Source: an uncultured Opitutaceae bacterium
GTDB taxonomy: Bacteria; Verrucomicrobiota; Verrucomicrobiia; Opitutales; Opitutaceae
Direction of reading: 5' to 3'
Assembly: GCA_951813085.1 (NCBI GenBank)
Contig: OX638348.1
Location: forward strand, 2,303,627 to 2,367,626
DNA length: 64,000 nt
Shown here piece by piece: positions 14,077-54,054 of the stretch. Made by a program: the position numbers and the translations under genes. Every line of letters starts with the position of its first letter. Positions within the stretch are counted from its first letter, which is position 1. The notes beneath the pieces are model-generated. The model saw only the letters and a program-made list of their open reading frames with translations, ran no database searches and was not told the DNA's origin.

Positions 14077-14157
14077 GTGTCCCCAATCTCGTGGCAATCA
14101 AAGCCGATTCGCTATCCAGGCTTGAAAAGTCTGACTAGCCAGAGATGCTCGCATGCA

Positions 14158-16659: not shown

Positions 16660-16680
16660 GACGGGAATTCGTTTACTTGA

Positions 16681-16749
16681 GTAGCTCAGTGCCTTCAGCC
16701 TGAGCAGTTAATATGTAAACTCAGGCTGAAGCACTGAGCTACTTTTTTT
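16681..16749. repeat. Long palindromic element (terminator-like, possibly a dispersed repeat)
   Basis: The left arm 16681-16704 and right arm 16720-16742 pair almost perfectly (23 bp with one bulged C). The arms contain GTAGCTCAGTG and TTCAGCCTGAG. The plus strand continues with seven T, so as a terminator it would work for plus-strand transcription, although both flanking genes are on the minus strand. On the minus strand the stem alone could pause or protect RNA. The TAGCT...GCTTCAGCC core resembles the IS1595-type ends at 57441-58140, so a small mobile palindrome is possible. Confidence 0.7.
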
Positions 16750-16824
16750 AGATCTGCGGTTATGGCTTTGGCTTTTTTTGTTTAAGAATCTATAGCGACG
16801 TCCCTACAAATTACAGGCTATCAG

Positions 16825-19800
16825 CTAGTGCTCATCATGGGGCGGATGATCCGTTCGGAGGTAAGCGATCAGATCCCTAACTTGCCTGTCGTCCAGTGCG
16901 GACAGCAAGCCCTCTGGCATCATTGAAACGGGCAGCGTCTGACGCGATAGAATGTCGGACTTGGCGATGGTGACATTCTGGCCGATCATTCGCAAGGTCA
17001 CTTGATTGTCATCCTCGCTGGCAATATTTCCCGCATAGGAACGGCCATCCTGCAAATTGATCGTTACCAGTTGGTATCCCTCAGGAATTTCGCCGCTCGG
17101 ATCGATCATGTTCGTCAAGATGTACTCGAGGTCCGCCCGATTCGAACCCGTTATATCCGGTCCGATCTCTCCCCCTTCCCCGTATAGCTTATGGCAGGAA
17201 GCGCAGGTTTGCTCGTACAGAGCTTTACCGGCCACCAGATCGGCGTGAGAGACGTATTCATCCGTCAGTAGGATGCGATATCGGTCCATCGCGACCTGCT
17301 TATCTTTTGAAAGCGATTCGATCGAACCCCAGAAATCCGCAAATCGGGGACCGATGATTCGATTGAGTTGACGCGCGGCAACTGCGGATACGTCTCCTCG
17401 AGGAATCGTTCCTCTGTACAGGGCCTCGAACAATGCCAAGGCGCTGGTTCTTCGTGTCGCCAATGTTTGGATAGCGATCGATCTTTCCAAGCCTGAGAAA
17501 CTAGAATAGCGGCTGATAATCTCTGCAGGTACGCTGAGATCTTCGTAGGAGGCGATCGCTCTCAGAGCGGGCTCTCTGAGCGCCGCATCATCGAGAAAGC
17601 CAACGATCGCATCGAATGCGGGCGCGTAGACTTCTTGCCCAAAGCTCAAGAGGATGTCCTTTCTCTCCTCGAGATTTGCGCGCGCATCCTTAAGTTGAGC
17701 CAGTCGAGCTTTGCCCGCTTCCGCGCTCCCGAACAGTTGACCTAGCCGCAAGGCGAGACTCCGCGTTTTGCTGTCTTGAGATTGCATGAGAGTCTTCTCC
17801 AATGCCGCCCATCCTCTTGGGGCATTCAAGTAGCGCTGCCCCGCAAGTCCGTCGCGCAAGCCTTCGAGAAGCGGAATCCGAGCGCTGGGTGATTCCGCCT
17901 TGGCAATGGCCGCTATCACTTCAGAGACTTTTTCCGCTGCCACTGCACGTCTCGCGATGTAATTCGAAACCATCGGGATCTTGCTTTGCAATGCCTGCTT
18001 CAAAGCAACGTCAGTCGCGTTCTCTACATGCCCTTCAACGCCGAACCAGATCATCTTGGGCAGGTTGTGGTCGTCGACATCGCCTTCATGGCTCAGCAAG
18101 CCCTCGGCCACCTTCCACGCGCTCGCGCCGGGAATACGTTGCAACGCCGCCGCCAAATAAAGCCGGACAACCGGGGACGGATCTGACGCTGCCATGCTCA
18201 CGAATTTCTTAAGGGCCGCATTTCCAGGCTTAAAATCTTCGCAAAGCAATTGAATGGCCCAGGAGCGAATGTGGGCATCCTCGTCATCCAGCAAGCTTGT
18301 GAGCTGCTTCTGACTAATCCCATCAGTCACATGCAGCGCCCATAGCGACCGAAGCTGGCGACCCGTATCCGGTCCAGACTTGAATTGATCCCACAAAAGC
18401 CCATGGACGTTATTCGAAAGAGAGCCTTCCGTCGCTCGCTCATGCAGCAAGACACGAGCGCGACGCACGTACCAGTCATTGCGGTGGGCCTGCAGTTCAA
18501 CCAATTCGGCATCAGACAATTTTGCCAAATCCAAGCCCGATTTGCCCTTCGTCCCTTCGGCCGCGACGCGGAAAATTCGGCCTGTATCCTTCTGCATGGT
18601 ACTCATGCCGCAAATATCGGGATCATGCCAATCCAGGATGTAGACCGCTCCATCCGGACCGATCTCGATACTGAAGCCGACCCACATGCCATCATTGGCA
18701 AGCACCGTATCGTCCCCGTGCTTGCCCACGAAACCCGACCCTTTCGGCACCAGTATGTCCGACAAGAGCGCGTGCTCATGGATATTGGCCATGAAAATTC
18801 GATCGTGGTACTTTTCAGGAAACTCCTCCGCTAAGTAAATACGGGCGCCACCGTGAGCGGAACGATGCCGGTGGTCGGTGATCGTCCGAATATCTGAATA
18901 CACGTGCGGGTTGATGTGCTGACCACCCTGGCGGTGATAGATCCCGCCAGGTATCACATGCCAAAGATGAGGAATCACGCAAGCGGTGATGAATATTTGG
19001 CCATTGTCGTCGAAATCCATCCCCCAAGGATTGCTGAATCCATGGGCCACTACTTCAAAGCGGTCCTTGATTGGGTGGTAGCGCCAGAGGCCGCCATCGA
19101 TCTCCACAGGGTCTTGGACCTTCTGATTCACAGGGAACGCTTCTCCATGCCTATAGATGCGCCCTTCTCCAACCGGCTTCCCAACCATCGAAGGAGTTGC
19201 AAAGCCTTGGCATCCATAAAGCCATCCATCCGGGCCCCAGATAAAGCTGTTGAGGGTTTCGTGACGGTCTCTGATGCCCCACCCGGTCAACCGAATTTCA
19301 ATGTCGTCCACATCGGCCTTGTCATCTCCATCGCGATCCGGAACGAAAAGCAAATTTGGCGGCGCCCCGAGCCATAGCCCATCAAATCCCCAGGCGATAG
19401 CGGCTGGAAACGGAATTCCTTCCATGAATAATTTCCGCGTATCCATTTTTCCGTCACCGTCTTCATCTTCAAGGATAAGAATGCGACTGTTCCCATCAGC
19501 GGAAAATCCCGTCTTTCTGGTTTCGTAGTCACGGTTTTCCGCCACCCAAAGCCGTCCTCGGTCATCCCAGCAAAATGCCATCGGCTGCGTAATCGCTGGT
19601 TCGGACGCGAAAAGATTCACTTCCAATCCGTCTGCCACAGTCATCTTCTCAACCGCCTCATCAGGCGATAGAAAGGCGGCTTGCTTGGACTCATTTCTCG
19701 CTGCGACCCATTCCGCGCTGTTGTATCGTTGACCGCCATAGGCGAGCCAATCGCCATTCAACTCAACGTCGTTCAATTCACCCGTGTAAACGACGAATTG

Positions 19801-20607
19801 ATGGCGAAATACTTCGGTATCCCCCGCAGGAATTTTCCAATCACCGAGGCGTGATCTCGCCGGCCCGGCTCCCATTTGCCTGTCGACTCTCCAGGGCATC
19901 GGATGGGTCGGATTCTCCGGGTGATCGAATATAGCGATATGCCCCCAGTCATCGCGGCCCTCGATCTCCATACCAATATCAACCCAAGTGGCCCGCTGCC
20001 CCTCCGCGCGATTGTTTCGTTGGCGAGAGCTGTTAACAACTTCTCCTTCATTTCCTGTTTTCCACGGCATGCGCACAAAGAGCCCACCATAGTTGTATTC
20101 AGAAACCGTTACTTCGGTATGCGCTTTGCCGGACCATAGAAGGTCCATGAGATAGCGTTCACCTGTATCCCGAACAGACCAGACCTGCGATTCCTCCAGC
20201 AGAGCGGTGCCGGATTCGTCCAGCAGATGATAAACGGTCTCCCACTGAACGACTTCCCCCATTTCCGCTAGAATTTTCGATTCGACTCGCTGCCAGTATC
20301 CATCCGATGGGTTGTGGAAATAGTCGCGTCCATTAAGCCGCGTGAATCCCCAATAGATCCCGGTCTGGTGCTTGTGGTGGCCGGGACTGTACTCGGTCAG
20401 AACTCCCTTTCCGTCCGGGGCCACTATCGGGTGCAGATAAGGTCGATGGTCGGCTCGTGCGTGCTGCACGATAATCGGCTCCGATGACCCATCGCGAAAT
20501 ACGGAAATCGTTTGATCTTCCTCGTTCTCTACAAGTTTCAGAGGATCTGCAAAAAGCGCGCAACAACCAATTGTAATGTATCCAATAAAAGCAGCGTAAT
20601 TTTTCAT
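16825..20607 (-). CDS. DUF6807 (PmoA-like) - PVC dehydrogenase - HEAT - cytochrome c fusion
   Basis: 1260 residues with a signal peptide. Residues about 25-310 form a DUF6807/PmoA-like beta-sandwich (SPGHHKHQTGIYWGF, DLLWSGKAHTEVTVSEYNYGGLFVRMP, DHPENPTHPMPW). Residues about 325-680 are the PVC-type dehydrogenase propeller (GRLWVAENRDYE, DEDGDGKMDT, HETLNSFIWGPDGWLYGCQG, HRSAHGGARIYLAEEFP). HEAT repeats fill about 700-1100. The heme site is C1135-ASCH, with EIGPDITGSNRADLEYIL and SMMPEG behind it. It should be a periplasmic enzyme oxidising a carbohydrate with electron transfer to its own heme. It is 27 bases behind the related split dehydrogenase and belongs to the sulfatase operon. Confidence 0.85.
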   Translation of the reverse strand: MKNYAAFIGYITIGCCALFADPLKLVENEEDQTISVFRDGSSEPIIVQHARADHRPYLHPIVAPDGKGVLTEYSPGHHKHQTGIYWGFTRLNGRDYFHNPSDGYWQRVESKILAEMGEVVQWETVYHLLDESGTALLEESQVWSVRDTGERYLMDLLWSGKAHTEVTVSEYNYGGLFVRMPWKTGNEGEVVNSSRQRNNRAEGQRATWVDIGMEIEGRDDWGHIAIFDHPENPTHPMPWRVDRQMGAGPARSRLGDWKIPAGDTEVFRHQFVVYTGELNDVELNGDWLAYGGQRYNSAEWVAARNESKQAAFLSPDEAVEKMTVADGLEVNLFASEPAITQPMAFCWDDRGRLWVAENRDYETRKTGFSADGNSRILILEDEDGDGKMDTRKLFMEGIPFPAAIAWGFDGLWLGAPPNLLFVPDRDGDDKADVDDIEIRLTGWGIRDRHETLNSFIWGPDGWLYGCQGFATPSMVGKPVGEGRIYRHGEAFPVNQKVQDPVEIDGGLWRYHPIKDRFEVVAHGFSNPWGMDFDDNGQIFITACVIPHLWHVIPGGIYHRQGGQHINPHVYSDIRTITDHRHRSAHGGARIYLAEEFPEKYHDRIFMANIHEHALLSDILVPKGSGFVGKHGDDTVLANDGMWVGFSIEIGPDGAVYILDWHDPDICGMSTMQKDTGRIFRVAAEGTKGKSGLDLAKLSDAELVELQAHRNDWYVRRARVLLHERATEGSLSNNVHGLLWDQFKSGPDTGRQLRSLWALHVTDGISQKQLTSLLDDEDAHIRSWAIQLLCEDFKPGNAALKKFVSMAASDPSPVVRLYLAAALQRIPGASAWKVAEGLLSHEGDVDDHNLPKMIWFGVEGHVENATDVALKQALQSKIPMVSNYIARRAVAAEKVSEVIAAIAKAESPSARIPLLEGLRDGLAGQRYLNAPRGWAALEKTLMQSQDSKTRSLALRLGQLFGSAEAGKARLAQLKDARANLEERKDILLSFGQEVYAPAFDAIVGFLDDAALREPALRAIASYEDLSVPAEIISRYSSFSGLERSIAIQTLATRRTSALALFEALYRGTIPRGDVSAVAARQLNRIIGPRFADFWGSIESLSKDKQVAMDRYRILLTDEYVSHADLVAGKALYEQTCASCHKLYGEGGEIGPDITGSNRADLEYILTNMIDPSGEIPEGYQLVTINLQDGRSYAGNIASEDDNQVTLRMIGQNVTIAKSDILSRQTLPVSMMPEGLLSALDDRQVRDLIAYLRTDHPPHDEH

Positions 20608-20634
20608 TGTTCTATAGTGTTCCTAAATTTTTCT

Positions 20635-22884
20635 CTATTCGCTAACCAATTCAACGTTACCCCAGTACCCGAATTGATTGTCCGAGCCATTGGTGGCATT
20701 CTCGAGCACGATCTCAACCATCGTACCCGCATATTCAGTCAAGTCGACCTCGCTATCCAGCCACTCATCCTGAACCGTCTTATGGCTAACCTCCTGCTCC
20801 AATAGAACCTTTCGTCCCACCACGACCCGCATCTTCCAATCCCCATGAAGATGATAGCTCGTCCGAAGCTTAAGCGTCGTTGTCTTCGCGCTCGGTATGG
20901 AAACATTGCGAATCAAGCGGCTTCTACTGAATCTACCTCCAGCCTGCATTTTCAACGCTACTTCATTGCGAAAGCTTTCCAATAATTCCACGGGTGTTCT
21001 GTCATTATAGCGAAAGCCCGGGGCTACTTTTTCAACCAGCCCATTCACGTCCGGTTTCACGGTTACCTCAGTTTCAAGCATTCGTCTCGGGGCAAATTCC
21101 TGAAGATTCGTTGCTCCGGAATTGATCGCTAGCTCTAGCGCCCGATCAGCATTGCCCGGAACCATTGGCTCAAGCGCGAACCAAAGCATTCTCGGAATAT
21201 TCGCATCCTCTCGGTCCTCTTCCCGGCTCGCCAGAGCCTCCAGAATCGGCCAACGATCATCGAATTCCATCCGCTGCAACACGGAAGCCAAATAGAGACG
21301 TACTACCGATGAAGAGTCGTTTTCCGCCATTTGCTTAAATTTCATAAGAGTATTCGCGGTAAAACTACGATCTTCCCCAAGGAGTTGAATGGCCCAGGAA
21401 CGACAATACTCGTCCTCATAATCCAGCAGGTAATGCAAACGGCTCTCCCCGTCAGCTCCTCCAAAATAGTTGGTCACCCAGGCTGCCCAAATCATGCGCA
21501 GTCGCTTCCCGGAATTGGGGGCATCGAAAAACTGCTGGACGATTTTTTCGTGAACGGAGCGCTTGTCCAGCTCTCCAGCGGCTGCTCTCTCTTGCAAAAT
21601 CGTCCGAGCGTGACGCACATACCAGTCGTTGGAGTGCTTTTGCATTTCGACCAATTCGAGATCCGAGAGCTCCCTAAGATTTGGTTGAGCGATTTTCGGA
21701 GCATCCTCCGGTAGAATTCGATAGACGCGTCCACTATTGGGGAAGTTAATCGCGTTTCCGCAAATGTCGGTATCGTGCCAATCTAGAATATACACGCCTC
21801 CTTCGGGGCCGATTTCCACACTGAATCCGACCCAAGCAAGATCGTTGATCGGCAAGAAGTCATCGCCATGGCTCCCGATGTACCCTGAACCCGATCGATT
21901 CATAATATCAGTCAGCACTTCATGCTGATGAATATTGCACATGAAGAGCCGGTCCCGATACTTCGCTGGAAATGTATCCGCTAAATAAAAACGCGCGCCC
22001 CCATGGGCTGACTTGTGCGTGTGATCGCGGATCGTCTTGATGTCGTCATATACATAGGGATTTACATGGGCACGGGCCTGCTTATGATAGACCCCGCCTT
22101 GAGACACGTGAAAGAGATGCGGGATCACGCAACAAGTCGCGAAACCATGTCCGAAGTCATTGAAGTCAAATCCCCAAGGATTGGATAGTCCACGCGCGAA
22201 TATCTCAAATTCATGCTTAGTTGGGTGGTAGCGCCAGATGCCCGCATCGATAAACTGACGATCCTCGTCGCTTGCGCCAGGCTTTCCTACGTTTGAATGA
22301 GTGAACACTCCATGACATCCATACAACCAGCCATCCGGTCCCCAAATGAAACTATTCAAGGTTTCATGCCTATCGTTGATTCCCCATCCGTCCAACAGAA
22401 CCTGAGCCGGCACATCCGGCACATCGTCCCCATCCGCGTCTGGAATAAAGCTCAAGTTAGGGGGCGAGCCTAAATAGACACCTCCGAATCCCACAGCAAT
22501 ACCCGAGCTGAATGTAATATCATCCATAAAGATCTTCTTCTTATCGAAGACTCCATCTCCATCGGTATCCTCCAAGATCTTGATACGGCTTATATCCCCC
22601 GTGTTATGGGTCCGCCGGTTTATATAGTTAGTATTTTCAACGACCCACATCCGTCCTCGGTCATCGAAGCAAAATGCAATGGGTTCCTCGATATCGGGTT
22701 CCGCCGCAAAAATCGTAACATCGAAACCATCAGGAATATCCATTTTCGCTACCGCCTCAGTTGGCGTGAGAAAAGGCGCGTTGCTCGTCTTCGACTCTTG
22801 GGCAGAAACCGTATTGAATAAAGCCGCAAAAATTAAAAGGAAGACGCCACGATTCCCTATTCTAAAATTCATAAATTTCTTCAT
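20635..22884 (-). CDS. PVC-type dehydrogenase propeller protein without heme (partner of the upstream heme gene)
   Basis: 749 residues from ATG 22884 (TTG 22890 is less likely), with signal peptide GVFLLIFAALFNTVSA. Residues 30-440 are the PVC dehydrogenase propeller, closely similar to the 16825-20607 protein (HETLNSFIWGPDGWLYGCHG, YHKQARAHVNPYVYDDIK, YILDWHDTDICG). HEAT-like helices follow. The last 130 residues form a beta-rich module (DWKMRVVVGRKVLLEQEV, ENATNGSDNQFGYWGNVELVSE) that looks like a carbohydrate-binding NPCBM-type sandwich in place of cytochrome c. It starts two bases after the upstream gene's stop, so the two products are made together and probably act as one enzyme. Confidence 0.8.
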   Translation of the reverse strand: MKKFMNFRIGNRGVFLLIFAALFNTVSAQESKTSNAPFLTPTEAVAKMDIPDGFDVTIFAAEPDIEEPIAFCFDDRGRMWVVENTNYINRRTHNTGDISRIKILEDTDGDGVFDKKKIFMDDITFSSGIAVGFGGVYLGSPPNLSFIPDADGDDVPDVPAQVLLDGWGINDRHETLNSFIWGPDGWLYGCHGVFTHSNVGKPGASDEDRQFIDAGIWRYHPTKHEFEIFARGLSNPWGFDFNDFGHGFATCCVIPHLFHVSQGGVYHKQARAHVNPYVYDDIKTIRDHTHKSAHGGARFYLADTFPAKYRDRLFMCNIHQHEVLTDIMNRSGSGYIGSHGDDFLPINDLAWVGFSVEIGPEGGVYILDWHDTDICGNAINFPNSGRVYRILPEDAPKIAQPNLRELSDLELVEMQKHSNDWYVRHARTILQERAAAGELDKRSVHEKIVQQFFDAPNSGKRLRMIWAAWVTNYFGGADGESRLHYLLDYEDEYCRSWAIQLLGEDRSFTANTLMKFKQMAENDSSSVVRLYLASVLQRMEFDDRWPILEALASREEDREDANIPRMLWFALEPMVPGNADRALELAINSGATNLQEFAPRRMLETEVTVKPDVNGLVEKVAPGFRYNDRTPVELLESFRNEVALKMQAGGRFSRSRLIRNVSIPSAKTTTLKLRTSYHLHGDWKMRVVVGRKVLLEQEVSHKTVQDEWLDSEVDLTEYAGTMVEIVLENATNGSDNQFGYWGNVELVSE

Positions 22885-22886
22885 AA

Positions 22887-24077
22887 TCAATTCATATCCT
22901 CCAAAGGCTCTTCTGTTCTTAAATACTGTATCAAGTTTACCACTTCGTTGTCTTTTAAAGTCATCAAAAGTCCTTCTGGCATCATCGAAATATCCGAAAC
23001 TACCCGAGACTTGATGTCCTGTTTCGCTACGATCTGCTTCTGTCCCACCGCATTCAGGACGATGCGGCGGCCGTCTTCCTCCGCAATCGCGCCCACAAGC
23101 GTTTGACCATCGTGGGTTGTAACCGTCACCATTTTGTAGCTGTCCGGGATATCGTCGCTGGGATCTAGAATATTCAAAAGGATGTAGTCTAGATTCGCTC
23201 GATTCGAACCCGTAAGATCAGGGCCAATCTCGCCACCACTACCATACATTATGTGACAGGCGGCGCAGGTTCGGTCATATACCGCTTTCCCTTGAATCGG
23301 ATCCGCATCGGCCATCGTCTCGGGCGTAAGCAAGTTCCGATACTTTTCGAACAAAGCGCTCTTATCGCCCGAGAGAACCGCAATGTCACCATAGACTTCT
23401 GAAAAATCTGAGCCGAGCATCGACTCCAAAGTCCGAGCCGCGTAGCTCGGGATTTCGCTTTTCGCAATAGCCCCACTTCGCAGGGTGCCAAGCAATTCCT
23501 CCGCATACTCGATACGCGTGGCCAGAGTTTCGATAACCACGCGACGGTCGGACGCATCGAACGCTTCATATCGATTGAGCAGCAACTGGGCAGCGCCTGG
23601 CTGGGGCATTACCCCGAATCCTCGAATCGCTGATGTTCTTAGATGTCGATCATCGAGAAGCGTTTCTAGTCCCGTCGCCAATTTTTCACTACGCTGCACT
23701 AGCAACGATCTAAACGCTCTTTCACGCTCGTCTACATTCGCAGCCGTATTTCGAACTGTACTCAATGCTTCAAGCGCCGCGCTCTCATCGCCGAAAATCT
23801 GCGATAGCTCCTGGAACAATCGCTTAACTTCGACATTCTCGCTCGTAGCTAATCGTTCACGCACGTCACCCCAAGCCGCAGGCGGTTCCACATCCCTACG
23901 TCCCTCCAAGCTCTTGAGCAAACCGCGCATCAGCGATATCTGAACATTTTCATTGTTCGAGTTCGCAATCGCATTTGCCAACTTCTGCAGGGCGTTCGAC
24001 TCGCTAGCGCCGCCCATAAGCGAGCACCATAAAAAGGTCCCCAGAAAGGCTAAGCTCAATTTTTGAAAATTCCGCAT
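22887..24077 (-). CDS. HEAT-repeat cytochrome c protein, heme half of a split PVC dehydrogenase
   Basis: 396 residues, signal peptide (SLAFLGTFLWCSLMGGA). Residues about 30-250 are HEAT-like helices aligning with the C-terminal half of the 16825-20607 fusion (LLKSLEGRRDVEPPAAWGDVRE, RRVVIETLATR). The heme domain starts at C271-AACH with GEIGPDLTGSNRANLDYILLNILDPS and MMPEGLL. It has no propeller of its own. It lies directly upstream of the propeller gene with a TGA-TT-ATG junction, so the domain order in the RNA is reversed compared with the one-piece paralog. Its role is probably electron acceptance from the partner dehydrogenase. Confidence 0.8.
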   Translation of the reverse strand: MRNFQKLSLAFLGTFLWCSLMGGASESNALQKLANAIANSNNENVQISLMRGLLKSLEGRRDVEPPAAWGDVRERLATSENVEVKRLFQELSQIFGDESAALEALSTVRNTAANVDERERAFRSLLVQRSEKLATGLETLLDDRHLRTSAIRGFGVMPQPGAAQLLLNRYEAFDASDRRVVIETLATRIEYAEELLGTLRSGAIAKSEIPSYAARTLESMLGSDFSEVYGDIAVLSGDKSALFEKYRNLLTPETMADADPIQGKAVYDRTCAACHIMYGSGGEIGPDLTGSNRANLDYILLNILDPSDDIPDSYKMVTVTTHDGQTLVGAIAEEDGRRIVLNAVGQKQIVAKQDIKSRVVSDISMMPEGLLMTLKDNEVVNLIQYLRTEEPLEDMN

Positions 24078-24103
24078 TCGCGTCTACTCGTATAAGAATC
24101 GAT

Positions 24104-25702: not shown

Positions 25703-25706
25703 TCAG

Positions 25707-27116: not shown

Positions 27117-27127
27117 AGTAGCTTCGT

Positions 27128-28975
27128 TTATTTCTTAGTAACGTAAACGTAGTATGCGCTGAGGATGGTGCTTCCCGTTCCGCTCGGTCTGCCTCCAGAG
27201 CCCTTATCGGGCCCTCGAAACCAGGTGTGCAACGCGATGGGCCCCTTCTCGAGCTGAGCCGTGAAGGTGACTGAAGTTTCATCGGGTCCAACCGATTTCG
27301 TTTCTCCCTCGAATCCGTAAGCGCTCTTTTCACTAATGCTCAAGTGATGATAGTCGCTCAGGTAAAAGTGGGCCTGAGTAATCGGTATAGCGCCTTGACC
27401 ATTCTCCGATGGAGCGGTGAGAGGACGATCGATTTCCTTCGGCCATCGACGCAGCTCGAAATCGTATTCCCCGGCCTCAGCCACTTCCAACATCCAGTAG
27501 CCTGTTTTATGCTGTCCAACGCGAATCTGCCTTTGCTGATCAATAAATACGTCCAGCCATTCGCAGCCTGTTAAGCGCGACGGGTTTTCATGCTCGCTAC
27601 CAATAATCACCCGTTGGACGTCATTGGCGTTTGGCCCTACGTCGGCCCACCAATCATCCAGCTTGCCTCGCATCTTGGCCAGGACCTCTGGATACTTATC
27701 GATCACGTTGTTTTGCTGCAAGGGATCGGTCTCGAGATTGTAGAGCTCGCGATCTTCAAGCAATCGCCAGCGCTTCCAGAGTACCTCACCCAGATTCCGC
27801 TGCATGAGCGTCTGAGCGAACGGGGTTGGGTAATTAACGAAATTCGGCATGCGACTGTAGTTTATAACCAGCATCCGGTCTTCGGGAACGACCGCCTTTC
27901 CTTTCAAAATAGAGGCCAGGCTCATTCCGTCGAACTTGGCGTCATTGGGGATGTTGCAGAGATCGAGCAGCGTGGGCAGCATATCCTGAACTTGCGTGAG
28001 CCCATGGATATCCTGCGGTTCCAACAAACCGCCGTTCGGCCAACTGATGAAACAAGGAACGCGATGTCCTCCTTCCCACAATTCCGTTTTCCCACCGCGC
28101 ATTCCAGCGTTGTAGTAACGTGGACCATGGGTGCTGCCATTGTCGGTCTGAAAGATTACGATTGTGTCATCCTTAATCCCTTCATCGGCAAGAAACTTCA
28201 TCATCGCCCCCATGTTCTCATCGATGTTCAAAATCATGCCCAGGTAGTCGGCCAGACGGACTTTCATCGCGGGATCCATGTCATCGAACTCCGGTTGAGC
28301 GAGGATCTTCTTGATTGCAGCCTCATCCTTGTCCTTCGCAACCAGAGGACCGTGTGGCGTATTGGGCATGATGATGGAGAGGAACGGTTTTCCTTTTCGG
28401 GCAGCCTGCTTCATAAATGAGATGCTTTCTTCAAAGAAAACATCGGTGCAGTAGCCCTTGTACTTCTTCCACTTCCCATTGTTCACATAGGTGTCATCAA
28501 AGTAATCATTCCCCCAATAATCCGGGACGGATCCAATATGGGAGGAAGGAAACCAGCAGGTCTCATCAAACCCTCGGTCTTCTGGACGAAATGGATAGTT
28601 AGAACCCAAATGCCACTTGCCAAATAGGCCGGTCTCATATCCTGCATCGCCAAAGAAGTTAGCAATAATCGGCACATCCGGTCGCAACAATCCGCGCCCG
28701 CTGCTTACATTGATGCACCCATTGCGGGCCGCATCCAAACCGGTCATCAGCTGACCGCGCGTGGGCGCGCACATGGGAGAGACGTGGTAGTCTTCCAAAC
28801 GTAGACTCTCGCTATGCAGGTGATCGAGGTGCGGCGTCTTTAGGATCGGATTTCCGTTAACTGACAACTCCGGGTAGCCTTGGTCATCGGTCATGACGAT
28901 GATAATGTTGGGCTGCTTAGCCAGCGCCGCTGTAGCGACGAGGCTTACGATGATTAGGGAGACGAGTGATTTCAT
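27128..28975 (-). CDS. Sulfatase with an additional C-terminal beta domain, CAPTR type
   Basis: 615 residues from ATG 28975, which starts the signal peptide MKSLVSLIIVSLVATAALA. The open frame reaches 29014 but that part is not signal-like. Landmarks: IVMTDDQGYPELSVNGNPILKTPHLD, formylglycine site C69-APTR, GKWHLGSNYPFRPEDRGFDE, FQTDNGSTHGPR. The catalytic part ends near residue 460. About 150 further residues (DVFIDQQRQIRVGQHKTGYWMLE, GEYDFELRRWP) form a beta-rich domain, perhaps for glycan binding. It resembles arylsulfatases of the S1_16 kind, a tentative call. It begins 28 bases after the preceding sulfatase. Confidence 0.88.
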   Translation of the reverse strand: MKSLVSLIIVSLVATAALAKQPNIIIVMTDDQGYPELSVNGNPILKTPHLDHLHSESLRLEDYHVSPMCAPTRGQLMTGLDAARNGCINVSSGRGLLRPDVPIIANFFGDAGYETGLFGKWHLGSNYPFRPEDRGFDETCWFPSSHIGSVPDYWGNDYFDDTYVNNGKWKKYKGYCTDVFFEESISFMKQAARKGKPFLSIIMPNTPHGPLVAKDKDEAAIKKILAQPEFDDMDPAMKVRLADYLGMILNIDENMGAMMKFLADEGIKDDTIVIFQTDNGSTHGPRYYNAGMRGGKTELWEGGHRVPCFISWPNGGLLEPQDIHGLTQVQDMLPTLLDLCNIPNDAKFDGMSLASILKGKAVVPEDRMLVINYSRMPNFVNYPTPFAQTLMQRNLGEVLWKRWRLLEDRELYNLETDPLQQNNVIDKYPEVLAKMRGKLDDWWADVGPNANDVQRVIIGSEHENPSRLTGCEWLDVFIDQQRQIRVGQHKTGYWMLEVAEAGEYDFELRRWPKEIDRPLTAPSENGQGAIPITQAHFYLSDYHHLSISEKSAYGFEGETKSVGPDETSVTFTAQLEKGPIALHTWFRGPDKGSGGRPSGTGSTILSAYYVYVTKK

Positions 28976-29003
28976 ATTGGGTCGCAGGTTTCGGGGTAAG
29001 GCG

Positions 29004-30512
29004 CTAATTGACACGGTACTGAGTCTTTAGTTGCTCGAGTTCCGTTTTAAGCCGAGCTATAGTCTCAGCGTATTCAGGATTGCCATATACACTTTTCATT
29101 TCACTTGGATCACGCTGGTGATCGAAAAATTCCCATTCATCTACATCATCGTGTTTGTAGTGAATCAACTTATACCGTTTGTCGGCCACGCCTTCATGGG
29201 GTGGGACGCCATGGTTATAGTATCCTTCGCTCACGCTTCCTCCACGCTGCTCGCCGTAGTATTTGTAATAAAAGCTCTTTCGCCAGTTTTGGGGAGCGGC
29301 ACCCTTGAGCAAAGGAACCAGACTGCGGCCTTGGATCTCGCTCGGAATCGACGCTCCTGCCATTTCAAGAAACATGGGAGCGAAATCCAGATTAGAAACA
29401 ATATCGCTGCTGACTCGACCTTCCTGAGTGACACCGGGCCACCGAACCAAAAGCGGCGTCTTCAAGCACTCCTCATACATCCACCGCTTGTCATACCAGC
29501 CATGCTCCCCAAGAAAAAATCCCTGATCCGCCGCATAGATCACGATTGTATTTTCCGCCAAGCCACTCTCATCGAGATAGTCCAGTAAGCGACCCACATT
29601 TTCATCGATGCCTTTGCTCGTCAGGAGGAAATTCTTGATAAAGCGCTGGTATCGCCACTCTGCCCGTTCGTCGCCTTGAAGATTCGCCTTTTCGAAGGCA
29701 TCGTTGGCTTCATCGAAATGGCTACGGTACTGAGCAAGCTGCTCGCCCTGGATATTCCGATAGTCAATACTGAGATTGCTAAGCGGCATAACGTTTGCGA
29801 TACTGGTGTTGTGATTCCCAGGAGCGCGGCTACGACCAGTATAGTCGTCGAAAAAGTTGTCCGGCAGGGGGACAGTAACGTCATCGAGCTCACCGAGATG
29901 TCGAAGAGCCGGTTGAAACGGCCCATGGGTCGCCTTGAATTGGCTCATCAACATGAAGGGCTTGTCGGAATCCCGATTCTTTAGCCAATCCAGTGATCGG
30001 TCCACTACTACGTCCGTGTTGTAGCCTTCATACTCAGTGGGTTCCCCGTCGGTATAGAGCGTAGGATTGTAGTAGCGACCCTGCCCACGCATCACCTCAT
30101 GGTAGTCGAAGCCCGTTGGCACGGATTTCAAATGCCATTTGCCCACGATTGCCGTCTCGTATCCAGATTTTTGCAGCAGTTTAGGAAAGGTCACCTGTCC
30201 TCCATCGAAGGTATTGAAATTATCTATCTGCCCATTGAGGTGGGAGTACTTCCCAGTCAGGACTACCGCGCGCGAGGGCGCGCAAATCGAATTCGTCACC
30301 AGGCATCGGTCGAAGCGAATCCCTTCCGCGCCAATCCGATCAATGTTCGGCGTCGGCACCACTTTGGATAATGGATGACCATAAGAGGAGATCGTTTGCC
30401 ACGTATGGTCATCAGAGAAAATGAAGAGGATGTTTGGTTTATCCTTCGACTCCGCTGCAGAGATGAGGAAAGCAAATATCCAAAATACGGTTACAAATTT
30501 GATTTTACTCAT
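29004..30512 (-). CDS. Sulfatase, CAPSR type
   Basis: 502 residues from ATG 30512, start of a signal peptide (KFVTVFWIFAFLISAAES). Its ATG overlaps the TGA of the preceding sulfatase (ATGA), which implies coupled translation. Landmarks: FIFSDDHTWQTISSYGHPLSK, formylglycine site C77-APSR, GKWHLKSVPTGFD, YAADQGFFLGEHGWYDKRWMYEE. The DDH opening and GFFLGEHGWYDKRWMYEE motif match the sulfatase group that includes N-acetylglucosamine-6-sulfatase-like and related marine enzymes (S1_11-type, tentative). It is exported to the periplasm and needs formylglycine maturation. Confidence 0.9.
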   Translation of the reverse strand: MSKIKFVTVFWIFAFLISAAESKDKPNILFIFSDDHTWQTISSYGHPLSKVVPTPNIDRIGAEGIRFDRCLVTNSICAPSRAVVLTGKYSHLNGQIDNFNTFDGGQVTFPKLLQKSGYETAIVGKWHLKSVPTGFDYHEVMRGQGRYYNPTLYTDGEPTEYEGYNTDVVVDRSLDWLKNRDSDKPFMLMSQFKATHGPFQPALRHLGELDDVTVPLPDNFFDDYTGRSRAPGNHNTSIANVMPLSNLSIDYRNIQGEQLAQYRSHFDEANDAFEKANLQGDERAEWRYQRFIKNFLLTSKGIDENVGRLLDYLDESGLAENTIVIYAADQGFFLGEHGWYDKRWMYEECLKTPLLVRWPGVTQEGRVSSDIVSNLDFAPMFLEMAGASIPSEIQGRSLVPLLKGAAPQNWRKSFYYKYYGEQRGGSVSEGYYNHGVPPHEGVADKRYKLIHYKHDDVDEWEFFDHQRDPSEMKSVYGNPEYAETIARLKTELEQLKTQYRVN

Positions 30513-32011
30513 GGCCGATCGTCCACTTTCCAGTTCTTGTTCTTCCGATTTCCGTAGTGCGGGTAATAGTCCCACTCAATAGGACCTCCAACAACTCTTG
30601 GATCCTTCGTCTGCTCCAAATGGGCGAACAGGCGCTCGCGCAAGTCCGCTTGAATCGCCTCAAATCCTTTCGAACCCGCGACGTTGTTCATTTGATGCGG
30701 ATCGTCTTTCAATCGGTACAATTCCTCCGCAGGGCGCTTTCCGAACGCGAGGTGCGCCAATGCAGCGACTCCATGATCAAATTGGTGCTCGATCATATAG
30801 GTCTTAGTCGGAGAGGAGTCGTACTCGCCGAATGGTATCAACCGATTGCATACCTCGGGATCGGGTGAACCGGAAGGCCACCGAGTAGGTTCGAAATTGT
30901 AGACATAAAGGTAGTCCTCGGTCCGAATCGCGCGGCAAGGGTATCCTTTCCCACCGGCTCGCGCTCCACTGTGTCGCTCAAATCCAATGTAAGCGGCGTC
31001 CCAATCCGCTGACTGGGCACCTGCAAACAGATCCATGAGGCTACGACCGATCATCATGTCCGGAACGCTCACCCCCGCGGCCTCAAGAAACGTCGGCGCC
31101 AAGTCGCTGAGATTGACCGGGCTGTCTACCGATCGCCCTGGATTCTTGATTCCTTCCGGCCAGCGAATCGCTAGGGGAACACGTGCCCCGTCATCATATA
31201 CGGTCGCTTTGCCGCGCGGAAAGGGCATACCGTGATCACTGGTCACGACTACGATGGTATCATCCAGAATCCCGCGTTCTTCCAACACCGCCATGGCGCG
31301 CGCGACCATGGTGTCGAAGTGCTCGACCTCAACCAGGTAGTCGGCGATATCGCTTCGAATGATTTCATTGTCCGGAAAGATAGGCGGCACGACGATCTTG
31401 CCGAGATCCTTTCCTGTAGTAACACCTGCGCCATCTTGAAAAAAACGATGGGGTTCGCTCGTCCCCAACCAAAAGCAGAAGGAACCCTCCTCATCCACTT
31501 CGGATAAGAAATCCTCGAAATTTCCCGCATAGTCCGTATCGCGAATTCCTCGAAAAGGAGGCTGCAATTTTCGCTCTACATAAGCAGGTCCCGCCGGGTT
31601 TTCAGTTCGACCTCCCGGCTCCAGGCGGCCGGGTCCCCAGGCCTTGCCCGTAGTCCCGACTTTATAGCCTGCTTTCTGCAACTCTTCTGTATAGGTAGCG
31701 AATTTAGCCTGCAAGGTACTCCAGATATTGGCGGCTTCCTCGAGTCGCCAAATCGGCTGACCCGTTAGGATGGCGCTACGGGAAGGTCCGCAGGTCGGAG
31801 CGTCGCAAAACGAATTGACGAAGCGTAGTCCTTCAGCCGCTACACGATCAAAGGCGGGCGTACTCACTACCGGGTCGCCATTGGCACCGGTATGGGCCCA
31901 AGACTGGTCATCGGATATGCAAAAGAGAATATTGGGGCGAGCAATCGCGTTCTGAGTGAACGCCAAGAGCGTTACGCATAAAGAAAGTAAAACCGAATGG
32001 ATACGCTTCAT
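30509..32011 (-). CDS. Sulfatase, CGPSR type (paralog A)
   Basis: 500 residues, signal peptide (VLLSLCVTLLAFTQNAIA). Landmarks: FCISDDQSWAHTGANGD, formylglycine site C74-GPSR, GKAWGPGRLEPGG, TSDHGMPFPRGKATVYDDG. It is a clear paralog of the next upstream gene: long stretches are shared, such as the SAILTGQ segment, DIADYLVE, the TSDHGMPFPR region and EPTRWPSGSPD. The S-D-HGMPFPR type is typical of S1_8-like heparan N-sulfatase-side enzymes (tentative). Its ATG overlaps the TGA of the upstream paralog and its TGA overlaps the downstream ATG. Confidence 0.9.
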   Translation of the reverse strand: MKRIHSVLLSLCVTLLAFTQNAIARPNILFCISDDQSWAHTGANGDPVVSTPAFDRVAAEGLRFVNSFCDAPTCGPSRSAILTGQPIWRLEEAANIWSTLQAKFATYTEELQKAGYKVGTTGKAWGPGRLEPGGRTENPAGPAYVERKLQPPFRGIRDTDYAGNFEDFLSEVDEEGSFCFWLGTSEPHRFFQDGAGVTTGKDLGKIVVPPIFPDNEIIRSDIADYLVEVEHFDTMVARAMAVLEERGILDDTIVVVTSDHGMPFPRGKATVYDDGARVPLAIRWPEGIKNPGRSVDSPVNLSDLAPTFLEAAGVSVPDMMIGRSLMDLFAGAQSADWDAAYIGFERHSGARAGGKGYPCRAIRTEDYLYVYNFEPTRWPSGSPDPEVCNRLIPFGEYDSSPTKTYMIEHQFDHGVAALAHLAFGKRPAEELYRLKDDPHQMNNVAGSKGFEAIQADLRERLFAHLEQTKDPRVVGGPIEWDYYPHYGNRKNKNWKVDDRP

Positions 32012-33573
32012 TGTTCGCTCTCTGGTTTCTTGTCTACAGTCCAGCCCGTATTTCTAATTCGCCCGTAATAAGGATAATAATCCCAATCCACCGTTCCCCC
32101 TACGACGCGTGGATCCCTAGTCTTCTCCAATTGAGCGAATAGCTGCTCGCGAAGCTGGGCACGCGTTGACTCATACTCCCTAGTCCCTGCTACATTGACC
32201 ATTTGTTCCGGATCAGACTTCAGGTCATACAGCTCCTCGGCAGGGCGCATCCCAAACGAAAGATAAGCAAGGTCTGCGAGGCCGTGCGTATTTCTATTTT
32301 CCATCATGAACGTCTTGGTGGGGGATGAGTCAATTTCTCCATACGGTAATGCTCGAGCGCATACAGAGGCGTCCGGGGAACCCGAAGGCCACCGAGTCGG
32401 CTCAAAGTTGTAGATATAGAGATAGTCAGCCGTACGAATCGCTCGACAGGGGTAACCCTTCCCTCCCAAGCGGCAGCCATCGTGACGCTCCATGGCGATA
32501 TAGGCCGCCTCGCGGCCCTTCGGCTTCTTGCCTTCGAATACATCCATCAGACTCTGAGCGCTCATCATAGCGGGAGGCTTCAGTCCGGCGGCATCTAGGA
32601 ACGTGGGTGCCAGGTCGCTTAGGTTGACGAAGGAATCGACAACGCGTCCCGGGTTTTCAATCCCTTCCGGCCAACGGATCGCCAACGGAATTCGAGAGCC
32701 CAAATCATAGAGGCTCGCCTTGGCTCGCGGAAAAGGCATGCCATGGTCGCTGGTCAATACAACGATGGTATTGTCGAGCAGTCCCCGCTCTTCCAAGGTC
32801 GCGAGCGCTCGCCCTACCATAGTATCGAAGTGCTCGATCTCGACGAGGTAGTCCGCGATATCGCTGCGGACGATTTCATTGTCCGGAAAAACAGCCGGTA
32901 CGACAATCTTGCTGAGATCCTTTCCCGTCTTCAATCCCGCTTCCTCTTCGAAAGCGCGATGCGGCTCGCTGGTCCCCAACCAGAAGCAAAAAGACTCATC
33001 CTCATCCACCTCGGCCATGAAATCCTTAAAATTTCCGGCATAGTCCGTATTGCGCATCATTCGGAAAGGCGTCTCCAGCGTCCTCCCCTCGTAAAGGGGT
33101 CCCGCGGGATTTTCGGTCCGACCTCCTGCTTCGAGCCTACCTGGGCCCCACGCCTTTCCCGTCGCTCCCACCTTGTAGCCGAACTTCCGCAATTCGTCCG
33201 TATAAGTCGCGAATTTCGCCGGCAAGGTGCTATGAATATTGCCCGCTTCCTCAAGGCGCCAAATGGATTGGCCTGTTAGAATGGCGCTCCGCGAAGGCCC
33301 GCAGGTTGGGGCGTCGCAAAATGCATGGGTGAAGCGCAGGCCCTCGTTCGCTACACGATCGAAGGCAGGCGTTTTTATAACGGGATCTCCGTTTGCTCCC
33401 GTGTGCTGATAGGATTGGTCATCCGATATGCAGAACAGGATATTGGGGCGAGAAAATCCGTCTTGCGCCGATATAGTGAATACGATTGCGATAAGCGCCA
33501 AAGATGAAATCGATCTCTTGGCAATGCAGGCTATTGCAGCCGGACAAATTCGGAGCATTGGGGTAGGAATCAT
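32008..33573 (-). CDS. Sulfatase, CGPSR type (paralog B)
   Basis: 521 residues. The N-terminus (MIPTPMLRICPAAIACIAKR...LALIAIVFTISA) acts as a long signal peptide, and ATG at codon 6 is an alternative start. Landmarks: FCISDDQSYQHTGANGD, formylglycine site C91-GPSR, GKAWGPGRLEAGG, TSDHGMPFPRAKASLYDLG. It is a tandem duplicate of the next gene, diverged enough to suggest a split in substrate use. It is the first sulfatase of the operon, 36 bases after the Gfo/Idh gene. Confidence 0.9.
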   Translation of the reverse strand: MIPTPMLRICPAAIACIAKRSISSLALIAIVFTISAQDGFSRPNILFCISDDQSYQHTGANGDPVIKTPAFDRVANEGLRFTHAFCDAPTCGPSRSAILTGQSIWRLEEAGNIHSTLPAKFATYTDELRKFGYKVGATGKAWGPGRLEAGGRTENPAGPLYEGRTLETPFRMMRNTDYAGNFKDFMAEVDEDESFCFWLGTSEPHRAFEEEAGLKTGKDLSKIVVPAVFPDNEIVRSDIADYLVEIEHFDTMVGRALATLEERGLLDNTIVVLTSDHGMPFPRAKASLYDLGSRIPLAIRWPEGIENPGRVVDSFVNLSDLAPTFLDAAGLKPPAMMSAQSLMDVFEGKKPKGREAAYIAMERHDGCRLGGKGYPCRAIRTADYLYIYNFEPTRWPSGSPDASVCARALPYGEIDSSPTKTFMMENRNTHGLADLAYLSFGMRPAEELYDLKSDPEQMVNVAGTREYESTRAQLREQLFAQLEKTRDPRVVGGTVDWDYYPYYGRIRNTGWTVDKKPESEQ

Positions 33574-33609
33574 TGTGGGGTAGTTAATCGTGGAAGAAGT
33601 GAGTATAAC

Positions 33610-34740
33610 TTATTTCAATGTAAATTCGGGCATTTGCTTGAGGGCTCCTCCTTCCATCGCGGACTCATGGGCGAGGATACCGACGCAGGTAATATTGGCT
33701 GACTCTGGCGCATTCGGGTATGGGGCTCGCTTTTCAAGCAGCGCGCTGACGAATTCATGAACCAAATGCGGGTGAGATCCACCGTGGCCTCCACCCTGAG
33801 TGAAGGAAAGATGCTGATTGTCGTCGGAATCGTAGACGCCTCGACCCGTGAAGGGACGAATTTCCTCAGGCAATCGATTCGCGAAGTCCGGCACTTCCAC
33901 GCGTTCCGGAATCTCGGGCTCCGGTTTGCCAATCGTATGAATCACCGGATTCTCCCCTTCAACCAATGGCCACTCGTAGCTCTTCTTCGAACCGTAGGCG
34001 TCGAAACTCTCCCGGTACTGGCGAGCCGTGTTGTACAAAGATCGTATAATCCGGGCGGATACATCCGAATCCTTAAATGTCACCTGACACGACTCGATCG
34101 CGAACGGCGAACCGTGAATCCCAATCATCTCCTCTTGAATTCTACCCGACCCGAAGCAAGAAAGCGTCTCCGCCCGATTGCGCTGCAGGGCCAAAACCGG
34201 TCCCACGCAATGAGTCGCGTAGTGCATCGGCGGCAAACCGTCCCAATAGCTCGGCCATCCGTCCATATCCTGCTGGTGACTCGACTGCAAATACTGGATA
34301 CGTCCCAGTTCGCCGTTGTCGAACAGCTCCTTTACAAAGAGAAACTCACGGCTATAAACCACCGTCTCCATCATCATGTAGGTCAGATAGGTTTCCTCGC
34401 ACAGTTCGCAAATTTGACGGCACTCGTCGACCGTGGTCGCCATCGGAACCGTGCACGCCACGTGCTTGCCCGCCTTCAATGCCTGAATCGAATGCGGCGC
34501 GTGGCTGCCGATGGGCGTATTGATGTGCACCGCATCGACGTCCGGATTCGCGAGCAAATCCTCGTAGGAGGTGTAGCGCATCGACGGATCGATTCCGAAT
34601 TCGTCGCCAACCTTGTTTAACGAAACTTCGTTTCGCTGGCAAATCGCGACGATATTCGCGTTCGGGTGCTTCTGGTAGATGGGAATGAACTCAGCGCCAA
34701 AGCCGAGCCCAACAAGAGCAATATTTACAGTATCAGACAT
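33610..34740 (-). CDS. Gfo/Idh/MocA family oxidoreductase
   Basis: 376 residues, cytoplasmic. The Rossmann N-terminus reads VNIALVGLGFGAEFIPIYQ with the nucleotide-binding GLGFGAE loop, then VHINTPIGSHAPHSIQALKAGKHVACTVPMA, which carries Pro where the catalytic Lys (EKP) usually stands. The C-terminal half is the alpha/beta substrate domain. The family uses NAD(P) to oxidise or reduce sugars and cyclitols. The missing EKP lysine suggests altered chemistry or a different acid/base. It is the first gene of the operon, divergent from the PAS-AraC regulator. Confidence 0.85.
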   Translation of the reverse strand: MSDTVNIALVGLGFGAEFIPIYQKHPNANIVAICQRNEVSLNKVGDEFGIDPSMRYTSYEDLLANPDVDAVHINTPIGSHAPHSIQALKAGKHVACTVPMATTVDECRQICELCEETYLTYMMMETVVYSREFLFVKELFDNGELGRIQYLQSSHQQDMDGWPSYWDGLPPMHYATHCVGPVLALQRNRAETLSCFGSGRIQEEMIGIHGSPFAIESCQVTFKDSDVSARIIRSLYNTARQYRESFDAYGSKKSYEWPLVEGENPVIHTIGKPEPEIPERVEVPDFANRLPEEIRPFTGRGVYDSDDNQHLSFTQGGGHGGSHPHLVHEFVSALLEKRAPYPNAPESANITCVGILAHESAMEGGALKQMPEFTLK

Positions 34741-43114: not shown

Positions 43115-43325
43115 TATAAAGCCTTCCAAATGTAGGACTTCCGATAGTATTCCCAATATCTAAGCTAATTATTAATGCACATCCCTGTGTCGATGTTGAT
43201 TTTCGATATGCGCTTGTTGACTAAAAACCATTGCAGATCAATTCGCATCGCCGCATAAACGGAACTTGCTCGGCGAGTCTCGCTATGGAGCGGACCTTAA
43301 TTATTACTCACCCTCCTTTCTTCCA

Positions 43326-44528: not shown

Positions 44529-44595
44529 CCCACGAATCACTCGAATTTTCACGAATACGGTTTTAGGATTCGTGAAAATTCGAGTGATTCGTGGG
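44529..44595. repeat. Perfect 28-bp palindrome, copy 1
   Basis: Arms 44529-44556 and 44568-44595 are exact reverse complements around an 11-base loop. The arm begins CCCACGAATCACTCG. It sits directly after the Tm-1-like stop codon and before the cupin start. A related palindrome follows at 45048-45116. This looks like a REP-type element, and its RNA hairpin could protect or attenuate the message. Confidence 0.9.
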
Positions 44596-44608
44596 CAAAA
44601 TTAAAATT

Positions 44609-45040: not shown

Positions 45041-45047
45041 GACCTTC

Positions 45048-45116: not shown

Positions 45117-45162
45117 AGACTAAATTTACAATCTTCATTCTTAATTCTTAACTTTACATACA

Positions 45163-46035: not shown

Positions 46036-46144
46036 CAAAATCATACGAGATTGTCTTGGACGCTTGCGCCTCCAACGCATTGTCGTTCATATGCTATAGC
46101 AGCTCCAGCAGACCTTGATGCCTTCTACCCCACCCTTTCCGATC

Positions 46145-54034: not shown

Positions 54035-54054
54035 TTATCGTCTACTCAACTGGA

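Follow-up and report, generated by a model that had tools for sequence, protein, structure and literature searches.

Six sulfatases and a split, order-swapped propeller-heme pair in one gene run of an uncultured Opitutaceae bacterium: a possible periplasmic route to desulfate, oxidise and cleave sulfated sugars

Background

How may sulfated sugars be opened at a locus that carries six sulfatase genes and at which no glycoside hydrolase was found? This question is raised by a run of ten genes (g10 to g1; positions 16825-34740) in the genome of an uncultured Opitutaceae bacterium (Verrucomicrobiota), in which genes for a Gfo/Idh oxidoreductase and six sulfatases are followed by a propeller-heme gene pair and a DUF6807 fusion gene. 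The window analysed is a stretch of 64,000 nucleotides (nt) of contig OX638348.1 (assembly GCA_951813085.1, positions 2,303,627 to 2,367,626), the host genome consisting of one contig of 4.85 Mb. The answer that is slightly favoured here is that the run represents a periplasmic operon that desulfates, oxidises and cleaves its substrate. The evidence consists of a propeller-heme pair that is split over two genes in swapped order, the replacement of its heme domain by a blue copper domain in some relatives, and fusions of related proteins with candidate bond-breaking domains and with a sulfatase.

Results and discussion

Gene content and layout of the run

The genes and motifs, in order of transcription, were as follows, PDB being the Protein Data Bank.

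33610-34740, minus strand: g10, Gfo/Idh/MocA oxidoreductase, no signal peptide by eye (PF01408, 85 bits; best PDB match DgpA, 7xr9, 67 bits)
32008-33573, minus strand: g9, S1_8-like sulfatase (PF00884; best PDB match 9bb9, 'S1_8A sulfatase', 162 bits; CGPSR)
30509-32011, minus strand: g8, sulfatase, close relative of g9 (PF00884; CGPSR)
29004-30575, minus strand: g7, S1_11-like sulfatase, likely start at codon 22 (PF00884 and SGSH_C; 5g2v, GlcNAc-6-sulfatase, 457 bits; CAPSR)
27128-29014, minus strand: g6, sulfatase, best PDB match weak and to an S1_19 entry (9hh3, 141 bits; CAPTR)
25707-27116, minus strand: g5, sulfatase (best PDB match 6hhm, arylsulfatase, 179 bits; CNPSR)
24104-25702, minus strand: g4, S1_16-like sulfatase (best PDB match 9fo1, k-carrageenan sulfatase S1_16, 464 bits; CSPTR)
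22887-24077, minus strand: g3, most likely the electron-carrier half, with HEAT-like region and TIGR02603 heme domain, encoded before g2 (TIGR02603, 124 bits, cut-off 68)
23253-23267, minus strand: CAACH heme-binding motif of g3, residue 271 (motif search)
20635-22890, minus strand: g2, propeller half, with TIGR02604/DUF7133, HEAT and a C-terminal beta domain (TIGR02604, 325 bits)
20635-21000, minus strand: C-terminal domain of g2, probably like a carbohydrate-binding module (CBM; Foldseek list, probable placement)
16825-20607, minus strand: g1, fusion of DUF6807, TIGR02604 propeller, HEAT and TIGR02603 heme domain (Pfam and NCBIfam; both TIGR domains over cut-off)
17191-17205, minus strand: CASCH heme-binding motif of g1, residue 1135 (motif search; the sole CXXCH in g1)

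The ten open reading frames (ORFs) are tightly packed on the minus strand and are read from the Gfo/Idh gene (g10) via the sulfatases (g9 to g4), the heme half (g3) and the propeller half (g2) to the fusion (g1). A sequence-only reading of this stretch had proposed such a unidirectional run of ten genes comprising a Gfo/Idh, six sulfatases, a dehydrogenase pair and a DUF6807 fusion, and the Pfam and NCBIfam assignments agree with it. The spacing given there, i.e., 4-nt overlaps or gaps of 2 to 36 nt, was right in its upper gap of 36 nt and missed a 67-nt ORF overlap at g7, which reflects the mechanical first start of this ORF; an ATG at codon 22 leaves an overlap of 4 nt. The genes g10 to g1 are presumably cotranscribed as one operon. 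A signal-peptide-like N-terminus was recognised by eye on every product except g10 (on two of them after a later start codon), which suggests a periplasmic system with a cytoplasmic oxidoreductase. Glycoside-hydrolase families were not found among the 40 window ORFs scanned with Pfam, several of which had no Pfam match at all; the proposed absence of glycoside hydrolases hence holds for these 40 ORFs, the remaining ORFs of the window lying outside the scan.

The propeller-heme pair is split and its order is swapped

The genes g2 and g3 represent a split pair with swapped order, the C-terminal (heme) half being encoded first. Indeed, g2 exceeded the cut-off for TIGR02604 only and g3 that for TIGR02603 only, with one CXXCH motif, in g3; with tblastn, g3 aligned to the C-terminal part of g1 and g2 to its middle part. 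The split dehydrogenase pair recognised earlier is thus borne out by the two TIGR families, with the correction that its order is swapped as well. Similarly, the DUF6807-dehydrogenase-cytochrome fusion proposed for g1 was recovered with Pfam and NCBIfam and contains a CXXCH motif; its heme end matches the diheme protein 7zs0 (Kustd1711) by sequence (53 bits). Both g1 and the pair resemble the TIGR02604/TIGR02603 heme proteins of the Planctomycetes-Verrucomicrobia-Chlamydiae (PVC) bacteria, as the same propeller and heme domains occur over curated cut-offs together with CXXCH. The pair differs from them by its two genes in reversed order and the extra C-terminal domain on the propeller half, and its relatives swap heme for copper.

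One scan of a species genome collection with g2 as query gave 39 related loci (numbered with L), the nearest named relatives being Opitutales metagenome-assembled genomes (L001, L002, L004). The second half was present in 36 of the 39 loci and was located upstream in 35. As to the three loci without it, a contig edge cuts L003 and L026 within or right at the propeller gene, and the 22 kb of L029 contain none. The upstream half overlapped the propeller gene by 4 nt in 25 of the 33 loci listed among L001-L037 (mechanical first starts). In L039, from a member of the Planctomycetota, the second half lies downstream: the propeller gene precedes the heme gene (L039:9929-13707), and this split is collinear and falls outside the clade with swapped order. 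A quick tree built from 74 propellers grouped the split rows in one clade of 49 (Shimodaira-Hasegawa-like approximate likelihood ratio test, SH-aLRT, 99), including L038, which is labelled as fused and is cut by a contig end. Beside this clade stood L029, a DUF6807-propeller protein with the C-terminal domain of g2, followed by the g1-type fusions (13 rows); support was expressed as SH-aLRT only and some long branches meet, so that the deeper joins are unsure. A g2 match at E ≤ 1e-100 occurred in 30 of 273 genomes searched within the order of the host (its own genome and g1-type paralogues counted), indicating a patchy distribution of the module.

Among the Foldseek matches of the g2 model are CBM61, CBM36, CBM4 and a module that binds porphyran. 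These matches were placed on the last domain of g2 based on domain length and strand content, so that the aligned positions are presumptive. Four loci (L023, L025, L026 and L034) have g4-type sulfatases that end in the same domain.

Heme is replaced by blue copper in some relatives

The g3 counterparts in L027, L028, L047-L051 and L054 lack CXXCH and carry C-x4-H-x4-M near their end. Pfam analysis of three of them (L027:8690-9832, L048:3852-4982 and L050:2593-3735) returned the plastocyanin/azurin family PF00127 over cut-off in each case, and in a genome search, each of the six genomes concerned had a PF00127 match over cut-off at the position of g3. The ligand set of type-1 copper consists of His, Cys, His and Met, and these ligands occurred in all seven aligned copper-form rows; of these rows, L027 and L051 stem from the same contig, judged by its length of 227,364 bases. 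Ahead of the junction, a copper form and a heme form shared 45% identity (202 columns, one pair), and the counterpart in L047 is split over two ORFs. The copper forms thus come from six genomes of genus g19 and the named record L028; G254 and G027, also of that genus, retain heme at the g3 place. In the propeller tree, the copper rows nest inside the heme rows as one clade with the propeller partner kept, which makes heme the older state in this sample. The six genomes contain 4 to 8 TIGR02603 matches each, indicating that the swap is not genome-wide. Furthermore, the host genome encodes two more proteins of this type with a copper domain (L091 and L092), the one in L092 matching TIGR02604 only weakly (21 bits). 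As a heme domain is replaced by a plastocyanin-like domain, the g3 half most likely carries electrons. The exchange of heme and blue copper at the same operon position represents a natural experiment that points to electron transfer.

Propeller fold and fusion partners

The structure model of g2 (mean predicted local distance difference test score, pLDDT, 87.5; predicted template modelling score, pTM, 0.77) matched a glucose dehydrogenase dependent on pyrroloquinoline quinone (PQQ), 1c9u, at Foldseek rank 1 (E 5.5e-7), with a template modelling (TM) score of 0.54 by target length and 0.34 by query length, a root mean square deviation of 7.2 and 13% identity. On the basis of this match, the g2 model is assigned a quinoprotein-type propeller fold. 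This soluble quinoprotein is the best solved fold match of g2; it differs in that no match at the sequence level was obtained in a PDB profile search and in that the carrier of g2 resides on a separate chain. Indeed, a sequence-level link of g2 to solved quinoproteins was rejected, as the six matches of that search, repeat proteins and others, all had E above 0.03. The g1 model was weaker (73.3); it matched the PQQ sugar dehydrogenase 3a9g (rank 9, E 2.9e-4), which was preceded by mostly helical-repeat proteins. This model was not used for the geometry of heme and propeller, its confidence being too low in the heme region. The fold of the models suggests dehydrogenase chemistry for the propeller proteins, and this oxidative reading gains weight from the exchange of carriers and from the fusions described below.

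In the host genome, one ORF (L093:13304-16099) combines a PF01011 PQQ quinoprotein, cytochrome c and a 3-keto-disaccharide hydrolase domain (3keto-disac_hyd), and two sulfatase matches lie between it and a TIGR02604 gene (L093:3928-7317). A second ORF (L090:5059-8382) joins 3keto-disac_hyd, TIGR02604 (78 bits, cut-off 122) and TIGR02603. Of the 30 matches of the 3-keto-disaccharide hydrolase family (PF06439) in this genome, 27 were over cut-off, and for two of these a fusion with redox domains was shown. The host thus joins domains for oxidation with domains for the cleavage of keto-sugars, though the hydrolase lies outside the run; the N-terminal place in g1 is held by DUF6807, not by the 3-keto-disaccharide hydrolase. 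Among the 39 related loci, fusions of the heme half involve ThuA in five (L005, L009, L012, L015 and L022), DUF6807 in one (L035) and a g6-type sulfatase in one (L007). For the propeller half, fusion with ThuA occurs in three loci (L020, L027 and L028) and in further cases of the genome set. Relatives of the ThuA gene next to the run (15763-16659) are 61-70% identical and occur in 11 of the 39 loci, some being fused to g2 or g3. In L012:5744-8470, the propeller-half ORF continues into a g4-type sulfatase until the contig end, a possible propeller-sulfatase fusion. No solved relative of DUF6807 emerged among eight PDB matches up to E 5; the top three were designed TIM barrels (E 0.002, 0.0046 and 0.13), which were taken as chance matches.

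Conservation of the gene grouping

The gene grouping is confirmed as real and as conserved in part of the relatives. L004, which starts inside g7, keeps the order g7, g6, g5, g4, g3, g2, g1. Genome G212, of the same genus as the host, contains genes for a Gfo/Idh, two S1_8 and one S1_11 sulfatases, g6, g5, g3, g2 and a stand-alone DUF6807, without g4. In family f8 of the same order, the g1 fusion accompanies the same sulfatase types and the split pair is not adjacent (L085, L086 and L089); L073, of the same family, shows this arrangement too, the pair being located on another contig of the genome. Any sulfatase match occurred in 20 of the 39 related loci, and relatives of the run sulfatases at 50% identity or more (52-97%) recurred at the pair in 13. 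A Gfo/Idh at this threshold was present in four loci (64% identical to g10 in L012, L022, L027 and L028), and ThuA or DUF6807 in 19. As many contigs are short, the 20 loci of at least 15 kb were also considered separately, among which 11 had any sulfatase, eight an orthologous sulfatase, three a Gfo/Idh and 12 ThuA or DUF6807. The nine longer loci without a sulfatase match indicate that the oxidase pair is not tied to sulfated substrates and is broader than the sulfatase partnership. A comparison of ten neighbours in six loci without orthologous sulfatases (L002, L008, L009, L010, L016 and L019) revealed no clear shared partner; PQQ_2-type propellers were found near the pair in L002 and L019.

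The synteny that had been put forward as a check on the locus is therefore kept in part of the related loci and missing in these nine. The 'direct coupling' of sulfatases with heme dehydrogenases read from the sequence was worded too strongly for the same reason; in its favour are the partial synteny, the fusion in L007 and the domain common to g2 and g4-type sulfatases.

Genome-wide, the association between sulfatases and TIGR02604 proteins is modest. TIGR02604 matches (37) were reduced to 18 ORFs (over cut-off, one per ORF, a frameshifted gene counted once), and match starts were compared with those of the 150 sulfatases listed among 258 candidates, using 4000 circular shifts. Within 5 kb of a listed sulfatase, nine of the 18 ORFs started, versus 3.9 in the shifts (56 of 4000 reached nine); within 10 kb, this was 12 versus 6.3 (80 of 4000). 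When g1, g2 and the frameshifted gene of the window were left out and window gene 46115-50488 was included, the counts were 7 of 15 versus 3.3 expected at 5 kb (159 of 4000) and 9 of 15 versus 5.3 at 10 kb (216 of 4000). Sulfatases are very common in this genome, so that runs of sulfatase genes alone are not surprising; orthologous synteny and fusion are stronger evidence than genome-wide proximity. Among the 150 listed sulfatases, seven matches are interrupted by stop codons (a mixture of TAA, TAG and TGA), suggesting gene decay or sequence errors.

Sulfatases and possible substrate

Sulfatases of type I (S1) that depend on formylglycine carry the maturation motif C/S-x-P/A-x-R. The six sulfatases of the run belong to this type, all having PF00884 and an intact C-x-P-S/T-R motif. 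A maturation enzyme of the FGE family (PF03781, best match 272 bits) is encoded in the genome; anSME (TIGR03942) was found below cut-off only. The best match of g7, 5g2v, is presumably BT4656. According to the available part of a previous study, S1_16 sulfatases of gut bacteria target 4S-Gal/GalNAc, S1_11 sulfatases, to which BT4656 was assigned, target 6S-GlcNAc, or L-galactose in aquatic members, and one S1_8 enzyme targets N-sulfoglucosamine (PMC10154612). The assignment of a polymer from the subfamilies of g4, g7 and g9 (S1_16, S1_11 and S1_8) was rejected, as these subfamilies cover several sugars, so that no polymer can be named. The subfamily matches fit a sulfated glycan that contains galactose or hexosamine.

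Proposed mechanism and its alternatives

The preferred model runs as follows. Exported sulfatases would remove sulfate from short sugar chains, after which the propeller proteins (g2 and the middle of g1) would oxidise the exposed sugar, perhaps at C3. The electrons would be accepted by a one-electron carrier that is mounted on a HEAT scaffold, with heme c in this run and blue copper in certain relatives. The glycosidic bond of the keto-sugar may then be cut by a companion module (DUF6807 in the run, ThuA or 3-keto-disaccharide hydrolase in related proteins), and the cytoplasmic Gfo/Idh may reduce or further process the imported keto-sugar. Presumed in this model are C3 as the site of oxidation, the parts played by DUF6807 and ThuA, export and location of the proteins, and a sulfated substrate. 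A comparable route is that of Caulobacter, where lactose is oxidised at C3 in the periplasm by LacABC and a periplasmic DUF1080 hydrolase is proposed to cleave the 3-keto product (PMC9007349); it differs by its other dehydrogenase and, in the available part of that report, by the lack of any mention of sulfatases, and the present run has no DUF1080. Clustered sulfatases (S1_7, S1_8, S1_16 and S1_19) are known from verrucomicrobial loci that, as far as the available text goes, are built around glycoside hydrolases, unlike the present run (PMC8857213). Likewise, sulfatase genes have been described next to PSCyt cytochrome genes, with the suggestion that the latter mirror glycoside hydrolases to some extent (PMC5615132, available part); the PSCyt families bear names other than TIGR02604/TIGR02603. 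An account of an operon such as this one was not found in literature searches on DUF6807, the TIGR02604 names, sulfatase-cytochrome-ThuA in Verrucomicrobia and 3-ketoglycoside with sulfatase, subscription journals being mostly outside their reach and no search being aimed at the heme-copper exchange; for DUF6807, the literature searched mentioned its number only.

Several observations weigh against the preferred model. Besides the nine longer loci without a sulfatase match and the restriction of orthologous sulfatases to eight of these 20, at least 150 sulfatase matches (among 258 candidates) occur in the 4.85 Mb of this genome. None of the ten run proteins contains 3keto-disac_hyd by Pfam, and homology of DUF6807 with the 3-keto-disaccharide hydrolase was rejected at an hhalign probability of 0.2% (10 and 4 sequences). 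With each of the nine NCBIfam families listed for Gfo/Idh, the g10 product fell far short of the cut-off; for the glycoside 3-dehydrogenase families it reached 50 bits with BT_2158_fam (cut-off 750) and 31 bits with BT_2159_fam (cut-off 650), which does not assign it to either. The heme region of the g1 model is of poor quality. For PqqE (TIGR02109), one genome match of 64 bits was obtained versus a cut-off of 381, and this family was over cut-off in none of the 14 control genomes, leaving the search without a positive control. Finally, the authors of PMC5342196 named their protein of the same architecture a beta-galactosidase.

This last report leads to a different explanation, namely that the propeller-heme proteins are hydrolases in which heme has a structural or sensing role. 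According to its available part, a purified TIGR02604-HEAT-TIGR02603 protein, Lac161_ORF7, hydrolysed lactose with a Km of 1.8 mM and release of glucose, and a PF14100 gene, PF14100 being the accession of DUF6807, may belong to the same putative operon (PMC5342196). It is likened to the present proteins by architecture, not by sequence, and sulfatases are not mentioned in that part. The glucose oxidase/peroxidase assay used could be disturbed by a heme protein. In addition, blue copper in the place of heme, as seen in orthologues, would be difficult to account for if this half did not carry electrons, and the best fold match of g2 is a quinoprotein dehydrogenase, which makes a hydrolase very unlikely. 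Soluble glucose dehydrogenase is a C1-oxidising enzyme, and as it is also the best fold match of g2, the propeller proteins may alternatively oxidise released reducing ends at C1, the lactones being opened by SMP-30/gluconolactonase-like proteins, so that electrons would be harvested and no glycosidic bond broken. An SGL-family gene (6986-8032, 181 bits) and a second SGL/NHL gene (2604-3629) do occur in the window, but both lie outside the run, and the fusions of the family involve 3keto-disac_hyd, ThuA and DUF6807 instead; oxidation at C1 is accordingly considered unlikely.

The neighbourhood may also be a loose one, with an unrelated redox module placed by chance inside a sulfatase run. The abundance of sulfatases in the genome, the weak proximity enrichment in the second count and the longer loci without sulfatase are in line with this, whereas the recurrence of run-sulfatase relatives at the pair in 13 of 39 loci, the sulfatase-heme-half fusion in L007 and the domain that g2 has in common with g4-type sulfatases render it quite unlikely. 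Concerning the preferred model, the oxidative route for a sulfated sugar anticipated by the sequence-only reading gains from the fold match with 1c9u, the carrier exchange and the redox fusions of 3keto-disac_hyd; its sulfated part is loosened by an oxidase pair that is not tied to sulfated substrates.

Boundaries of the run and further features of the window

Three features flank the run.

15763-16659, minus strand: ThuA-domain protein, possible eleventh member (PF06283, 67 bits)
16681-16742, no strand assigned: long hairpin between g1 and the ThuA gene, with a T-run on the plus-strand side after the stem
34892-35617, plus strand: divergent PAS-AraC regulator (AraC and PAS_4 domains)

The regulator found at the head of the run is of the kind predicted earlier, and AraC genes 34-37% identical to it are present in L012, L027, L028, L075, L077, L079 and L080. 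The region 16660-16824 folds on the minus strand with -55.9 kcal/mol (z -6.64; none of 200 shuffles as low), and the stem pattern of the hairpin occurs once in the genome. As its T-run sits on the plus-strand side, the hairpin is at most a possible end of the operon. A scan for promoters and terminators inside the region, allowing loops of 3-8 only, showed no excess versus shuffles (13 versus a mean of 14.7, and 20 versus 18.4); the long hairpin was missed because of this loop limit.

Elsewhere in the window, a TIGR02604-type gene with heme domain (9500-12399) consists of two overlapping ORFs in different frames, a frameshift due to decay or sequence error, and is adjoined by two plus-strand sulfatase genes (12619-15564). 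A TonB-dependent-receptor-like gene (35679-38858) aligns in one frame with a relative of 1110 amino acids (L081) and is divided into several ORFs as if by in-frame stops, with a FecR-like gene (39460-40974) upstream of it. On the plus strand, genes for a UPF0261 protein, a PEP-hydrolase-like protein and a propeller-heme-ThuA protein of 1457 amino acids lie in a row (43266-50488). Finally, genes coding for a class II aldolase, an L-arabinose isomerase and an FGGY kinase form an araBAD-like row (53303-57380).

Conclusions

TIGR02604 proteins abound in the host genome (18 ORFs over cut-off) without a settled function, four family names leading to one paper in a full-text search; the fusions point to partners that can be tested. 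A wider and tentative proposal, doubtful at present, is that PVC bacteria possess a modular periplasmic family that oxidises and cleaves sugars in place of many glycoside hydrolases. It would combine a quinoprotein-like propeller with two exchangeable parts, namely an electron carrier (heme or blue copper) and a module that breaks the bond (3-keto-disaccharide hydrolase, ThuA or DUF6807). DUF6807 and ThuA would then be keto-glycoside-cleaving enzymes that have escaped recognition, and the sulfatase operon would be one variant of the system for sulfated glycans. If true, the proposed route would help to explain how sulfated sugars are opened by sulfatase-rich bacteria at loci where no glycoside hydrolase is found, and DUF6807 and ThuA would gain a function that can be assayed.

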